Below, in pieces: positions 3,784 to 15,249 of a stretch of 39,330 bases of DNA (the first letter of the stretch is position 1; the number at the start of each line of letters is the position of its first letter). The notes under the pieces are model-generated. The model saw only the letters and a list, made by a program, of their open reading frames with translations, had not been told where the DNA came from and searched no databases. This DNA is from a virus. A program made the position numbers and the translations under genes. The stretch is taken from the IMG/VR virus record IMGVR_UViG_3300012930_000020, positions 1-39,330 of that record; one strand, written 5' to 3'.

Positions 3784-4184
3784 GCGACCTGGTCAGGGCC
3801 CGCACCGTCTACCGGACGGTGGCACTCGACGACCGGGCGCGGGAGCTGTTCGGCAACGACGTGGAGGGAGGCCCGACCGCCGCCATCGCCGACCTCCTGG
3901 CCGCGGGGCAGGAGACCCGCGCGATCGTCCGGCTGGCGCGGTGCTGCGAGGCGTGCTTCCGCGGAGACGCGTCCCTGTCCGACACTCCTCCGGCATACTA
4001 CGCCAGCTGGGCGCCGAAGAAGGCCAGGCGGGAGGAGACCGCCACGGTGAGGCCCGCTGCCGGGGCGAAGTTCTGGCGCGGCGTCATCGACGAGAAGGTC
4101 CTCGCCGCCAAGGTCGACATGGAGAGGCGCCGAGCGGCCACCGACGATGACAACAGCAACAAGAAGAACGGAGACAACCAGTGA
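3780..4184 (+). CDS. hypothetical protein of the sensor operon
   Basis: A 134-residue protein with an N-terminal helical domain (ELFGNDVEGGPTAAIADLLA; RAIVRLARCCEACF) carrying a CCxxC cluster at about 59-63, and a highly charged disordered tail (DDDNSNKKNGDNQ). GTGA coupling on both sides. No function can be assigned. Confidence 0.65.
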   Translation: MSDLVRARTVYRTVALDDRARELFGNDVEGGPTAAIADLLAAGQETRAIVRLARCCEACFRGDASLSDTPPAYYASWAPKKARREETATVRPAAGAKFWRGVIDEKVLAAKVDMERRRAATDDDNSNKKNGDNQ

Positions 4185-5110
4185 AGTTCAAGTTCCAGCG
4201 GCTCAGTAACCAGGTCACCGCGGTCCTCGCCGTCGTCGTCCTCACTTCGACCGCGGTGGTCGGCTCGGTCATCGTGTGGTCCGAGTCTCGCCGCGACGAG
4301 CAGGACGTGCTCGACACGGCCCGCGCCGTCGCGGCGGGGCTGTCGCAGCTCTGCGGGACGACGCTCGAGGCTGGGGTAGACGGCGGGTACCTGACGACGG
4401 GTGACCTGTTCGATGGCAGGCTCGACCTGATCCCGGGCGCGAACACGGTCGACGGCACCGGCAAGCTCGAGGAGAAGCACTACCACCGCGGGTACGACTG
4501 GTACACCGACCGCGTGTGGGTCCGGCCGTTCGACGCGGCGCTCGCTAGCTCACCCGACTTCATGTACACGATCTGCAACGACGCCGACGGGTACATCCCA
4601 ACGAGCAACAGCGTCTCGATGCAGCCTCCAGGCAAGGGTCCGTTCCGGGCGAAGCGGTGGGACGAGCTGCGCACGCCGATGCACCTCGCCGCGGCGCACA
4701 GCCTGGAGCCCTACCTCGTGCAGCCGTACCTCCGGGAGGGGCGCTGGGCATGGGACGTGTCCGTCCCGATCTCCGTCAAGGGTCGCCACTGGGGCGCGGC
4801 GCGCGTCGGGGTCAGTCAGGACAGGATCTCCGAGCGGAGGTGGAGGCTTGCCCTGGCGCTGGCCGGCATGCTGCTCGCGGCCGGGGCGCTGACCATCGAG
4901 GTCGGCAGGCGGGTCGTCCGCCGTGCCACGACCCCTCTCAGCGACCTGGCGGCCACGGCACACGCGGTCAGCGTCGGCGAGGACAAGGAGGAGGACGCCG
5001 TGCCTGGGCTGGACAGGACCGACGAGGTCGGCCAGATGTCCAGGTCCGTGAGGCGGCTCAGGATCAGCATGCGGGCGGCCATGAGGCGGATCGACGGAGA
5101 CGGGGTGTGA
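4181..5110 (+). CDS. orphan chemoreceptor-like membrane sensor with terminal HAMP domain
   Basis: 309 residues with receptor architecture: short cytoplasmic basic N-terminus, TM1 at about 12-33, an extracytoplasmic domain of about 185 residues, TM2 at about 221-243, and a HAMP domain at about 247-303 with the conserved Pro (TTPLSDL) and DEVG at 281-284. The sensor region has motifs typical of methyl-accepting chemotaxis proteins: DADGYIPTSN near 134-143 and WDVSVPISVKGRHWGAARVG near 190-212. The protein ends right after HAMP: no MCP signalling hairpin, histidine kinase or cyclase follows. Such a truncated receptor could join host receptor arrays or titrate a ligand or partner. It is fourth in a coupled five-gene unit. 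Sensor and HAMP assignments are firm; function is inferred. Confidence 0.85.
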   Translation: MKFKFQRLSNQVTAVLAVVVLTSTAVVGSVIVWSESRRDEQDVLDTARAVAAGLSQLCGTTLEAGVDGGYLTTGDLFDGRLDLIPGANTVDGTGKLEEKHYHRGYDWYTDRVWVRPFDAALASSPDFMYTICNDADGYIPTSNSVSMQPPGKGPFRAKRWDELRTPMHLAAAHSLEPYLVQPYLREGRWAWDVSVPISVKGRHWGAARVGVSQDRISERRWRLALALAGMLLAAGALTIEVGRRVVRRATTPLSDLAATAHAVSVGEDKEEDAVPGLDRTDEVGQMSRSVRRLRISMRAAMRRIDGDGV

Positions 5111-6019: not shown

Positions 6020-6094
6020 GGTTGTCTCCGTTTCAACATATTCTTGTATACGGATCGCTTAGTAAAGCCAACGAGCAACGAGAAAGCGAAAAAT
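6020..6094. promoter_or_regulatory. AT-rich divergent promoter region (HTH gene / thyX)
   Basis: This 75-nt gap is much more AT-rich than its surroundings. On the plus strand TTGTCT (6023-6028) and TGTATA are 17 nt apart, a plausible promoter for thyX; on the minus strand TATGTT precedes the GGAG-ATG of the HTH gene. No copy of the start-associated motif is present. Confidence 0.4.
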
Positions 6095-7021
6095 ATGAAG
6101 CTACCTGCGTTTGTTCCCGACATCCATCATACACCAGCTGGGACGCCGTACCTCAAGGAGCCCGGAGTCGCCCTCGTGGCGATGCCGCGCTTCATGCCGG
6201 AGCAGGCGACTCAATTCGTCAAGAGCTTCGGCGACGTGTTCGACGCGGCCGACTATGAGGACGACTGGTACGAGAACGGAGAAGGTGGATACCGCAGCCC
6301 GGACCCAGGGGTTCAGAACCTCAAGGTCGACGATGGTGCGGCGCTGTGCAAGTTTGCTGGTCAGACCTGCTACCTGTCGTTCGGCGAGAAGCGGACCCGC
6401 AACAGCCCGGAGGAGGTGAAGCGCTACTTCGACAACATCAAGTCGTCTGGGCACGGCTCAGTGACTGAGCACGCCTACTACTCGATGGTCGTGTGGGGCG
6501 TCGACCGCGCGTTCTCCCACGAGCTGGTCCGGCACCGCGCCGGGTGGGCCTACAGCCAGCTCTCGCAGCGCTACGTCAGCGGAAGGACGCTCAGGTTCGT
6601 CGAGCGTCCCGAGTACCAGGACGACCCGAGGCTGCACGAGTCATTCGTGCGCTGGATCGACGACGCGAAGGAGGAGTACGACACCCGGGCGGCGCTGCTC
6701 GCGCAGAAGATGAGCGCGCAGCTCGTGGCGAGGACGCTGACCGAGAGGCGCAAGGCCGTCAACCAGGCCGCCAGGAACTGCCTGCCGAACGAGACCGAGA
6801 CCGCAGTCGTGCTCACCGGCAACGTCCGCGCGTGGCGGCACGTCCTGGAGATGCGTGCGTCCGTGAGCGCCGACGTCCCGATCTCGCAGGTCATGCTGCG
6901 TGCCTACGAGATCCTGAGAGAGGTGTCGCCTGTGATGTTCGACGACTACACGCGCCACGACGCCGGAGCCAACAACGCAGGCGACAGGCAGCACCTGACC
7001 ACGCTGTACCGGAAGGTGTGA
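6095..7021 (+). CDS. thyX: flavin-dependent thymidylate synthase
   Basis: ThyX converts dUMP to dTMP using FAD, NADPH and methylenetetrahydrofolate. The 308-residue protein shows the family signatures: GHGSVTEHA (about 128-136), the ThyX motif starting at Arg146-His147-Arg148 and running AGWAYSQLSQRYV, and the C-terminal block VRAWRHVLEMRAS...VPISQ. The classical motif is RHR-x7-S; here eight residues separate RHR from the Ser of LSQRY, one more than usual. An in-frame TTG 51 nt upstream is a weaker start; the ATG at 6095 follows an A-rich stretch. Together with Dcd it would supply dTMP for phage DNA synthesis. Confidence 0.95.
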   Translation: MKLPAFVPDIHHTPAGTPYLKEPGVALVAMPRFMPEQATQFVKSFGDVFDAADYEDDWYENGEGGYRSPDPGVQNLKVDDGAALCKFAGQTCYLSFGEKRTRNSPEEVKRYFDNIKSSGHGSVTEHAYYSMVVWGVDRAFSHELVRHRAGWAYSQLSQRYVSGRTLRFVERPEYQDDPRLHESFVRWIDDAKEEYDTRAALLAQKMSAQLVARTLTERRKAVNQAARNCLPNETETAVVLTGNVRAWRHVLEMRASVSADVPISQVMLRAYEILREVSPVMFDDYTRHDAGANNAGDRQHLTTLYRKV

Positions 7022-10991: not shown

Positions 10992-11064
10992 CGATCTGTA
11001 GCTCAACGGACAGAGCAGTGGATTTCTACTCCACGGGTTGTAGGTTCGATTCCTACCAGATCGA
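10992..11064 (+). tRNA. tRNA-Arg (anticodon UCU)
   Basis: The cloverleaf is complete: acceptor CGATCTG/CAGATCG (7 bp), D stem GCTC/GAGC, anticodon stem GTGGA/TCCAC with loop TTTCTAC (anticodon TCT), 5-nt variable loop, T stem GTAGG/CCTAC with loop TTCGATT, discriminator A at 11064. CCA is not encoded (CGA follows). It reads AGA and by wobble AGG. AGG is used very often in the phage genes, including tandem AGG-AGG, so the tRNA fits codon supply for the phage. Confidence 0.95.
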
Positions 11065-11109
11065 CGATTGCGTCAAACACACGAATCGTCGCTCGACAGT
11101 ACCTACGAC

Positions 11110-12121: not shown

Positions 12122-12498
12122 CGAGCATCACCGACCAGCCTGCCCCGACGCCGCGCCCGGACCTCATCCCGGTCTGGGACCACGTGGTCATGGACTTCCG
12201 GCTGCGCTTCGAGGACGCGCTCGACGGAGTCGACGACGACAACAAGGACGTCGCGTGGCAGGTGCTCAACGACATGCGGGAGCGCGACGAGCTCGGCCGG
12301 GCGCGGTACGGGACCCCACTCACGACCAACAACGGTCGTGACCCGCTCGTCGACGCGTACCAGGAGATGCTCGACGGTGTCGCATACCTGAAGGCGGCCT
12401 GGCTCGAGGGTCAACCTGTACGGTACCTCTACTACAAACAGATCGACGGCCTGATCGTGCTCCGCAGGTTCATCCTGGCGCGCGAGGGCTCGAAGTGA
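12118..12498 (+). CDS. MazG-like / dNTP pyrophosphohydrolase-like protein
   Basis: 126 residues, ATG overlapping the upstream stop. The centre has RARYGTPLTTNNGRDPLVDA-YQEMLDGVAYLKAAW, a block shared by phage all-alpha NTP pyrophosphatase-like proteins (RyGtpL..nnGRD.l.DayqE.lD...Yl). The E-x-x-x-D pair in YQEMLDG would bind metal in such enzymes. The MazG metal site is not completely traceable, so the exact activity is uncertain. Next to dCTP deaminase and a deoxyribosyltransferase-like gene it fits dNTP-pool remodelling. Confidence 0.55.
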   Translation: MTSITDQPAPTPRPDLIPVWDHVVMDFRLRFEDALDGVDDDNKDVAWQVLNDMRERDELGRARYGTPLTTNNGRDPLVDAYQEMLDGVAYLKAAWLEGQPVRYLYYKQIDGLIVLRRFILAREGSK

Positions 12499-13061
12499 GC
12501 GTCCTCGTCGACAGGGACGTCCTCAACGCGGTCGCCGGCGGCGCGATCGTCGTCGACCCGTTCGACCCGAAGTGCCTCGGGACCAACAGTTATGATGTCC
12601 ACTTGGCGCCGACGCTGTGCGTGTACGCCGACCGCGAGACTCCGCTCGACGTCAGGGTCCCTCGCGCCACTCGCGACCTCGTGATCCCGGACAGCGGCCT
12701 GGTCCTCGAGCCCGGCGAGCTCTACCTCGCGTCGACCGTCGAGTACACCGAGTCGCACGAGCACGTGCCGATGCTCAACGGTCGGTCGAGCCTCGGCCGA
12801 CTCGGGCTCAGCATCCACGTCACGGCCGGCACCGGGGACGTCGGGTTCTGCGGCCACTGGACGATGGAGCTGTTCGTGATCCGGAGGCTCCGCGTCTACC
12901 GCGGGATCCCGATCGGTCAGCTCTTGTGGATGACCGCGAGTGGTGCGCCGGACCAGCCCTACGGCGACAAGCGGTCCGCGAAGTACAACCACGCCGACTC
13001 GCTCCCGCAGGCGAGCCTGCTGCACGAGGAGCTCGGTCACGGATCGAAGCGAGGTGGGTGA
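12495..13061 (+). CDS. dcd: dCTP deaminase
   Basis: 188 residues, the usual size. The enzyme deaminates dCTP to dUTP, feeding dUMP to ThyX. Sequence marks: LGTNSYDVHLAP near 32-43, LEPGELYLASTVEY (about 76-89), the motif NGRSSLGRLGLSIHVTAGTG (about 97-116) with the S-x-L-x-R-x-G core, and DVGFCGHWTMEL with the catalytic-position Glu. GTG start overlapping the upstream stop (GTGA). A trailing HGSKRGG tail is extra. A bifunctional dCTP deaminase/dUTPase cannot be excluded by eye. Confidence 0.92.
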   Translation: MSVLVDRDVLNAVAGGAIVVDPFDPKCLGTNSYDVHLAPTLCVYADRETPLDVRVPRATRDLVIPDSGLVLEPGELYLASTVEYTESHEHVPMLNGRSSLGRLGLSIHVTAGTGDVGFCGHWTMELFVIRRLRVYRGIPIGQLLWMTASGAPDQPYGDKRSAKYNHADSLPQASLLHEELGHGSKRGG

Positions 13062-13526: not shown

Positions 13527-14269
13527 CGCCGCTCGCTGAGTCCTCTAAGCTGCTCCGCGAGGTCGGCGCGTACGCGCCGGGAGGGGTGGTGGTTGGGCTG
13601 AGCGGCGGCAAGGACTCGCTGGTCACCCTCGATCTCTGCGTCAGGGAGTTCGGTCCGGCGCGCGTCAGGGCGTTCCACATGTACATCGCCCGAGGGCTCG
13701 AGTGCGTGGAGCGGACGGTTCGCTGGGCGGAGCGCAGGTACGGGATCGATGTCGAGTTCGTCCCGCACTGGATGCTCGGTCAGGCATACAAGAACGCGAC
13801 CTACATGCCTCACCGGCGCCGAGCTGACGGCTGGCGCGACACGCGGATGACCGACATCGAGCAGGCGGTCCGCGGGAAGCTCGGCTCGGACTGGTTCGCG
13901 TACGGGCACCGCATGAACGACTCGATCGAGCGCGTCGGCATGCTGAGCCGGAACGGTGGACTCGACCAGGTCGGTCGCCGGGTGTACCCGCTGCGGTCGT
14001 GGAACGAGGCGTCGGTGGTGGCGTACATGCGGGCTCGGCGCATCCCGTCGCCTCCGCGGCTGACGATCCTCCGGCGGTCGATGTCCGGGGTGTCCTTCCA
14101 GGAGGACGTGCTCGTCGCGATCCGCGAGCGCTTCCCGGACGACTTCGCGCTGCTCGTGGAGAAGTTCCCGTTCCTGCCCGCGAAGCTGGCCAGGTACGAG
14201 CTGAAGAAGAACAGCTGGAAGCAGGAGACGTACGTCGACAAGTGGCGGACGTCGCTGAAGGGAAGATGA
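13523..14269 (+). CDS. PP-loop ATPase / PAPS reductase-like protein
   Basis: About 248 residues. VVVGLSGGKDSLVTLDLCVR is the PP-loop (SGGKDS, about 27-32), followed by RAFHMYIARGLE and, near the C-terminus, DWFAYGHRMNDSIER and YPLRSWNEASVVAYMRARRI, as in phosphoadenosine-phosphosulfate reductase-like proteins. These adenylate a substrate or move sulfur; DndC-type DNA phosphorothioation enzymes belong here. No C-terminal reductase Cys motif is obvious. The start is unclear: CTG at 13523 overlaps the previous stop, GTG at 13586 would cut the first helix, and the upstream ATG 13346 overlaps the basic-peptide gene in another frame with poor codon bias. Confidence 0.75.
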   Translation: MTPLAESSKLLREVGAYAPGGVVVGLSGGKDSLVTLDLCVREFGPARVRAFHMYIARGLECVERTVRWAERRYGIDVEFVPHWMLGQAYKNATYMPHRRRADGWRDTRMTDIEQAVRGKLGSDWFAYGHRMNDSIERVGMLSRNGGLDQVGRRVYPLRSWNEASVVAYMRARRIPSPPRLTILRRSMSGVSFQEDVLVAIRERFPDDFALLVEKFPFLPAKLARYELKKNSWKQETYVDKWRTSLKGR

Positions 14270-15249
14270 CAGTGAAGAAGAGCAACTCCGGCGACGTCAA
14301 GGGCGCCCTTCACCCGGCACAGAAGTTCGTGCCGACGCGTCTCCACCGCACGACGCTGAAGGAGGCGCCGTACAACCCTCGGCAGATCGACGACCACGCT
14401 CGCAAGAAGCTGATGAACAACATCAAGTCGGTCGGACTGCTGGACACGCTCGTGTTCAACAAGAGGACCGGTCACATCCTATCTGGACACCAGCGACTTG
14501 GCATCCTCGACAGCCTGAGCAAGACAGGGAGCGACTACTCTCTGGACGTGGCCGTCGTCGATCTCAACGAGAGAGATGAGAAGAACCAAAACCTGTTCTT
14601 CAACAACCCGAGCACGCAGGGGACCTACGATGACGACGCGCTCGCGAAGATGATCGCAGATGAGGTGGTCGACTACGACAAGGCTGGGTTCGACGACATG
14701 GACCTGCAGATGCGGTTCGAGGGGACCGAGTACGCGGTCACCATGTTCGACGACGACAAGGCACCGAAGTCTGTGCAAGACGACCTGGAGCAGCTGGAGG
14801 AGATCCAGCGGATGAAGCGCGAGCGGAAGGCGCACCGCGAGCGTGACCAAGAGGAGAACGACCCTGAGTTCTACGCGGTCGTCGTCTTCCCAGACCGCGA
14901 CGCGCAGGGGCGCTTCATGGAGCGCGTCGGCATGAACAAGAACGACCGCTATGTGGACGGAGTCCGCCTCCACACGTCTCTGGAGGCGACCAAGGCGAGG
15001 TCGAAGACGTACGACGGAGAGGTGTTCGAGGAGATGAAGTTCTGGCTCGCCCGCGACCAGAAGACGGTGGTCGACGACGAGCTGACCAGGATCGCGTCGC
15101 TCCTGCGTGGCAAGAACATCCGGTCGCGCGCGCTGGAGGCGATGGCTGTGATATCGTCTCAGACGCCGATCGACAACATCACTGGTGAGGAGCCGGATAG
15201 CACTCCAACATTCAAGCCGCGCAATAAGAGGAAGGTGAGAGATGCCTGA
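14266..15249 (+). CDS. ParB-like nuclease-domain protein
   Basis: 327 residues, ATG overlapping the PP-loop gene stop. Residues about 28-85 hold the ParB/Spo0J N-terminal fold: LKEAPYNPRQIDDHARKKLM, SVGLLDTLVFNKRTGHILSGHQRLGIL, with the GHQR box. Next comes FFNNPSTQGTYDDDALAKMI (the 'N.N...G' segment common in phage ParB-like proteins), then a long charged coiled coil and a C-terminal domain. Such proteins bind nucleotide and often nick DNA. The 4-nt overlap with the PP-loop gene suggests joint work on DNA, for example modification or nicking. Confidence 0.8.
   Translation: MTVKKSNSGDVKGALHPAQKFVPTRLHRTTLKEAPYNPRQIDDHARKKLMNNIKSVGLLDTLVFNKRTGHILSGHQRLGILDSLSKTGSDYSLDVAVVDLNERDEKNQNLFFNNPSTQGTYDDDALAKMIADEVVDYDKAGFDDMDLQMRFEGTEYAVTMFDDDKAPKSVQDDLEQLEEIQRMKRERKAHRERDQEENDPEFYAVVVFPDRDAQGRFMERVGMNKNDRYVDGVRLHTSLEATKARSKTYDGEVFEEMKFWLARDQKTVVDDELTRIASLLRGKNIRSRALEAMAVISSQTPIDNITGEEPDSTPTFKPRNKRKVRDA

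Follow-up and report, generated by a model that had tools for sequence, protein, structure and literature searches.

The window analysed here, 39,330 bases long, comprises an entire IMG/VR record, which is linear and probably fragmentary. It contains a cluster of five translationally coupled genes (Table 1), each overlapping the next by 4 nt (3511/3514, 3780/3783, 4181/4184 and 5107/5110), and the fourth of these encodes the sensor protein that is the subject of this report. Its GTG start lies within the stop of the preceding gene, its own stop overlaps the start of the following one, and its GC content by codon position (0.67/0.50/0.93) matches that of the other genes of the contig. The overlaps bear out the coupling with four small genes that had been described in an earlier note on this DNA, made from the letters alone, whereas the identity of the fifth gene as a helix-turn-helix (HTH) gene remains soft, with no Pfam match and only weak PHROG matches (an HNH endonuclease family, E 1.6e-3, and "DNA binding protein", E 3.9e-3). 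Ahead of the cluster lies a promoter-like element (GTTGACAACGTCACCA..(A)GTGxGAACCT) that is present six times in the window, at 282, 827, 1876, 2479, 3112 and 10372, all within the first 10.4 kb. At several copies an ATG follows a few bases past the −10-like hexamer, resembling leaderless transcripts, and the putative promoter element might help in naming the host group.

Table 1. Coordinates of the coupled genes and of the parts of the sensor protein in the window.
Feature	Start	End	Strand	Description
Promoter-like repeat (GTTGACAACGTCACCA...GTGTGGGAACCTCCTTCT)	3112	3154	+	directly 5' of ATG 3155; assigned by position and spacing only
Cluster gene 1	3155	3514	+	119 aa; start inferred from the promoter-like repeat
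Cluster gene 2	3511	3783	+	90 aa, coiled-coil-like
Cluster gene 3	3780	4184	+	134 aa; overlaps the sensor gene by 4 nt
Output-less receptor ORF (cluster gene 4)	4181	5110	+	309 aa, GTG start; TM1 – single Cache – TM2 – HAMP – stop
TM1	4211	4282	+	about residues 11–34; hydrophobic stretch in the sequence, helix 2–67 in the model
Extracytoplasmic single-Cache sensor	4280	4855	+	residues 34–225; from homology, AlphaFold2 model and fold search
GYIPTSN motif	4589	4609	+	residues 137–143; GYxPTHN in bacterial relatives, with Ser replacing His in the phage copy
TM2 and beginning of HAMP helix 1	4844	4912	+	from the AlphaFold2 model; hydrophobic stretch in the sequence
HAMP domain	4913	5074	+	residues 245–298; its end and tail, RLRISMRAAMRRI, common to the bacterial output-less relatives
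HTH-like gene (cluster gene 5)	5107	5328	+	73 aa; overlaps the sensor gene by 4 nt

The earlier note had read the gene as an intact series of TM1, a chemoreceptor-type sensor, TM2 and HAMP that stops where an output domain should start, and the reading frame, Pfam, the structure model and a search for output domains all confirm this order. The HAMP domain (PF00672) scores 27.5 bits against a Pfam cut-off of 25 (E 4e-6, residues 245–298). In the AlphaFold2 model (pLDDT 87), a helix at residues 2–67 comprises TM1 and continues into the sensor, which has the single sheet of Cache and PAS-like domains, while a second long helix (213–269) joins TM2 to HAMP helix 1, and HAMP helix 2 (280–306) ends near the C-terminus. 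The nearest solved folds to the ectodomain are single-Cache domains, namely those of WalK from S. aureus (Z 14.9, 142 residues aligned, rmsd 2.3), DcuS (Z 12.6), CitA (Z 11–12) and TlpB (Z 11.6). The ectodomains of WalK, DcuS and CitA thus share the fold of the phage sensor (Z 11–15) at 8–15% sequence identity, and they belong to histidine kinases. Structure prediction and search therefore match the ectodomain to sensors and not to a structural phage family, and the first objection foreseen in the earlier note falls away. As no Pfam Cache model exceeds its cut-off (sCache_3_2 reaches 17.6 bits against 28.4), the sensor has a Cache fold but belongs to none of the Cache families described in Pfam. 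Sequence searches show its homology to domains found in methyl-accepting chemotaxis proteins (MCPs) encoded on plasmids (tblastn, E-values as low as 4e-12 at about 30% identity), and the label "chemoreceptor-type" is accordingly upheld.

Those MCPs differ from the phage receptor in that they carry an MCP signalling domain: PF00015 has no match in the receptor, and a related MCP aligns with the window over the sensor part only (tblastn). HisKA and HATPase domains were found neither in the receptor (Pfam) nor in the window (tblastn with a histidine kinase query). Apart from the sensor part, tblastn searches with the related MCP, CheA, a histidine kinase and CheW revealed no output domain in any frame of the window. 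The gene therefore encodes a complete output-less protein and not a broken chemoreceptor.

The phage origin of the contig, also claimed in the earlier note, is substantiated by its myophage portal, major capsid and tail sheath genes, of which portal and capsid are of the SPO1 type. A relative of 65 kb (G001) has structural genes that are 57–90% identical to those of the window. Among named phages, no DNA-level similarity to the first 25 kb of the window was detected, and tblastn returned no close relative of its receptor. The window further encodes a ThyX-type thymidylate synthase (6044–7021), a dCTP deaminase (12495–13061) and a ParB-like protein (13999–15249), consistent with a large phage remaking its nucleotide pool, and a single tRNA-Arg (TCT) gene (10992–11065).

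Whereas a plain protein scan of viral contigs for the receptor found none, searches with alignments brought up further copies. In total, five distinct phage copies with a mutual identity of 28–62% are now known: those of the window, of L108, of L109 (identical to L110 and G001), of L226 and of L229. Their carriers span at least three unrelated phage types. The L226 copy resides on a phage contig of 156 kb (G1533) with its own RNA polymerase subunits, a primase and a baseplate gene, and the phage carrying the L229 copy encodes portal and tape-measure proteins; outside the sensor both contigs are unlike the window, save for one further gene in G1534. Genes for beta-type subunits of a phage RNA polymerase were seen on G1533 at L236:5811–10187. 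Phage structural or hallmark genes are present in four of the five receptor-carrying contigs, the phage status of the L108 contig being taken from IMG/VR and one partial match. The capsid family phrog_752 had no match in the other carrier contigs, and none in the control either. The L229 copy has no close relative in named phages (tblastn), and a fold search of a predicted viral structure library gave weak Cache-like matches only. Weak structure matches to viral proteins led us to search the giant phages PBS1, G and Atu_ph07 for HAMP domains, of which none were found. In the open literature we found no paper joining phages with HAMP or Cache receptors of their own.

All five phage copies end just past the second HAMP helix, as do the bacterial relatives described below. 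An assembly error or frameshift as the cause of the missing output, the other objection that the earlier note had raised, is excluded by this conserved end point, and the output-less architecture is a conserved family trait in bacteria and phages. The receptor is absent from large related contigs and is therefore an accessory gene, and its location varies between close relatives. Both features would suit a passenger gene that serves no function at present, or an assembly that is chimeric or contains a piece of host DNA. Against this explanation stand the typical coding composition of the gene within a coupled cluster, its occurrence on five independent contigs, most of them with phage hallmarks, and the purifying selection shown between the L108 and L109 copies (dN/dS about 0.40 for the whole gene and 0.35 in the sensor; comparisons of either with the window copy are near saturation). 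We regard it as largely refuted and very improbable.

In L108 and L109, the sensor gene is directly followed by a conserved small ORF in the −1 frame (L108:7015–7253, L109:6970–7205; LEALxYRSxGxGLVPYEV...), which is not present downstream of the sensor of the window. Conserved residues lie 5' of any shared ATG, GTG or TTG, and a conserved GGAGG precedes the sensor stop. An unusual start codon, an overlapping gene and a frameshift product are the candidate readings.

The sensor domain is also widespread in bacteria, in several contexts. In the inspected plasmid hits and the scanned genome loci, it is found at the C-terminus of chemoreceptors, in the cytoplasm, behind the MCP signalling domain; the pattern used to scan the genome collection was biased to MCPs of this kind. 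Many chemoreceptors carry it there (L002–L008, L009–L088), and it is not covered by any Pfam model. The notion of an invariably C-terminal, cytoplasmic domain had to be rejected, as a search of whole genomes with a profile of the phage copies revealed periplasmic versions in one bacterial phylum, that of the Desulfuromonadaceae genome L042. These belong to chemoreceptors in CheW-MCP-CheA-CheB-CheY operons, to a histidine kinase and to output-less proteins of about 300 aa. The profile has full-length matches to bacterial proteins (E 1e-46 to 1e-55), the best being frames of 312–322 aa with the same end as the phage receptors. Within one class of this phylum, the output-less form occurs in about 37 of 244 genomes, as frames of 285–334 aa ending in ERLRxSLKxAMDRLxRK. 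All output-less bacterial loci examined encode, upstream, a secreted protein that shares the sensor domain. At least 19 of these loci contain a large Roadblock-like gene within short flanks, and the loci with longer flanks add a DUF4388 gene; the label "Roadblock" derives from one sub-threshold Pfam match of a small protein (19.4 against 23 bits).

Members of this output-less Cache-HAMP family (e.g. L178:6646–7536 and L176:7822–8715) share with the phage receptors the order TM1, sensor, TM2, HAMP and stop, the length and the tail, although the window copy is only about 25–30% identical to them. The HAMP tails were scored with two hidden Markov models. With the model of the bacterial output-less set, whose tail (ERLRxSLKxAMDRL) the window copy matches, the window, L108 and L109 reach 24.5, 22.0 and 13.7 bits; with the MCP-type model, built from only eight similar sequences, they reach 1.9, 0.4 and −0.3 bits. 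On the same models, the HAMP of AF1503 from Archaeoglobus fulgidus scores 47 bits with the output-less set and 30 with the MCP-type set. In the tree, the three phage sequences tested form a clade of their own (SH-aLRT 99) on a very long branch, and the bacterial output-less proteins are nearest to this clade by path, but the phage sequences are not nested among them. As far as sequence comparison goes, the bacterial output-less family is thus supported as the closest relative of the phage receptors, while descent from that family is not proven.

This affiliation weighs on the suggestion of the earlier note that the protein could enter host receptor arrays. As a decoy, it would combine with host chemoreceptors or other Cache/HAMP receptors into mixed dimers or trimers and so change chemotaxis or kinase output in a dominant-negative manner. 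In its favour, HAMP receptors function as dimers, the sensor has homologues among MCP sensor domains, and the periplasmic MCP versions occur in chemotaxis operons. However, MCPs with a periplasmic sensor domain have a HAMP of another type, and array insertion is argued against because the phage HAMPs score with the output-less family and not with the MCP type. The receptor also lacks the signalling hairpin, the part by which chemoreceptors bind CheA/CheW, and mixed dimers via the sensor are unlikely because the phage sensor is only about 25–42% identical to any bacterial domain found. The suggestion is weakened accordingly, and we consider a decoy role rather improbable.

The genes that follow the sensor speak to another proposal of the earlier note, namely that the receptor signals to its own operon partners. 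Ligand sensing would then control the phage DNA-binding protein encoded by the next gene, for instance in an expression or lysis decision. In favour of such phage-internal signalling, the sensor is translationally coupled to the HTH-like gene in the window and to a Cro/C1-type HTH gene in L229 (HTH_26, E 2.7e-4), but these two genes look unrelated. Moreover, the HTH-like protein of the window has a counterpart in G001 (83% identity over residues 6–59) that is coupled to a different gene, with the sensor about 20 kb away. Because G001 keeps the HTH gene without an adjoining sensor, the two genes are no constant pair, and no fixed partner emerges from the other phages, in which the next gene encodes a TRAP-type binding protein (L226) or is the small ORF described above (L108 and L109). 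Signalling to fixed operon partners has therefore lost ground, and we judge it unlikely. The TRAP-type protein of L226 is secreted and translationally coupled to the sensor (L226:5939–7159), with an E-value of 3e-18 to annotated TRAP binding proteins and of 2.5e-7 to a ketoacid-binding protein. This secreted binding protein beside the receptor and the secreted Cache-fold protein of the bacterial loci are suggestive of the sensing of an extracytoplasmic ligand.

What this ligand might be is touched by one motif. Wherever GYxPTHN was found in bacterial sequences of the output-less, secreted or MCP type (61 of 61), it ends in [TS]HN, and of 80 C-terminal domains at least 75 retain the HN pair. 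By contrast, none of the five phage copies retains the motif (PTSN in the window; PTTL, PTTL, PVTN and PTTN in the others), Ser or Thr standing in place of the His of the bacterial output-less family. The loss of the histidine in every phage copy suggests, at the level of sequence, that the ligand has changed or that there is none. In the latter case the sensor fold could be a mere scaffold of an envelope protein that serves superinfection exclusion or membrane modification. Later infections are often blocked by small phage membrane proteins, and the receptor may likewise exclude other phages. Yet the HAMP domain and tail, unneeded for such a role, are conserved to the same end point, and other motif residues are kept in most copies (R156, R159, Q181, Y183, R185, W191, D192, H203, W204, G205 and R208). 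We hold an envelope role of this kind to be quite unlikely.

Output-less receptors with a HAMP domain are already known. The HAMP of AF1503 is the prototype HAMP structure, and HAMP and tail of AF1503 are the best sequence match of the phage receptor in the PDB (E 1.2e-4). AF1503 has been termed an orphan receptor (PMC3570549), and its want of an output domain has been described (PMC3585426). It is archaeal and not phage-encoded, and outside the HAMP no sequence match to the phage receptor was found, but the latter is a variant of the same kind.

We favour, with about even confidence, the explanation that the protein represents a phage branch of the output-less family: a receptor that recurs as cargo in phages and, through its HAMP stub, docks a separate partner in the cytoplasm, probably one of the host. 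Infected cells would most likely contain the receptor as a dimer in their inner membrane. A small extracytoplasmic ligand would displace the TM2 helices, upon which the HAMP bundle would change state. At its exposed end, HAMP helix 2 has the tail RLRxSxxxAMxxI/L, which could serve as the docking surface for the partner, which would stand in for a covalently attached kinase or methyl-accepting domain. In bacteria, the neighbouring Roadblock-like proteins are the likely partners. Searches of the window and of the relative loci, whose contigs are probably fragments in which a missing gene weighs little, found neither Roadblock, CheA nor MCP output, one short CheW-like match in L104 (E 0.004) aside, and the secreted same-domain companion of the bacterial family is absent from them as well. 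Because the phage sequences contain neither companion nor Roadblock-like gene, in which they differ from most of the bacterial loci, the bacterial mechanism may not carry over. For the same lack of a Roadblock-like gene, a host protein is the most likely target of the phage receptor, which probably serves to tap or reset a host sensory circuit during infection.

More tentatively, and with less confidence than we place in the docking receptor itself, the phage-borne receptors may be seen as sensors that detect a small molecule outside and use their bare HAMP stub to signal to a protein of the host or of the phage. Several unrelated phage lineages would have taken them up from, or alongside, a bacterial system that combines a secreted sensor with an output-less receptor and uses Roadblock-like proteins and no kinase.

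If the docking explanation is true, a phage brings its own outward-facing chemical sensor and uses it during infection. The truncated receptor is a conserved protein type of bacteria and phages instead of a wreck, and the role of a HAMP without attached output, as in AF1503, thereby becomes testable in a new system. The comparison also draws attention to a bacterial signalling operon that has yet to be studied. We found no paper in the open literature that joins HAMP with Roadblock and DUF4388. In L178 (6646–10403), L179, L176 and L189–L217, this operon comprises genes for DUF4388, a large and a small Roadblock-like protein, the secreted Cache-fold protein and the output-less Cache-HAMP receptor, in this order.
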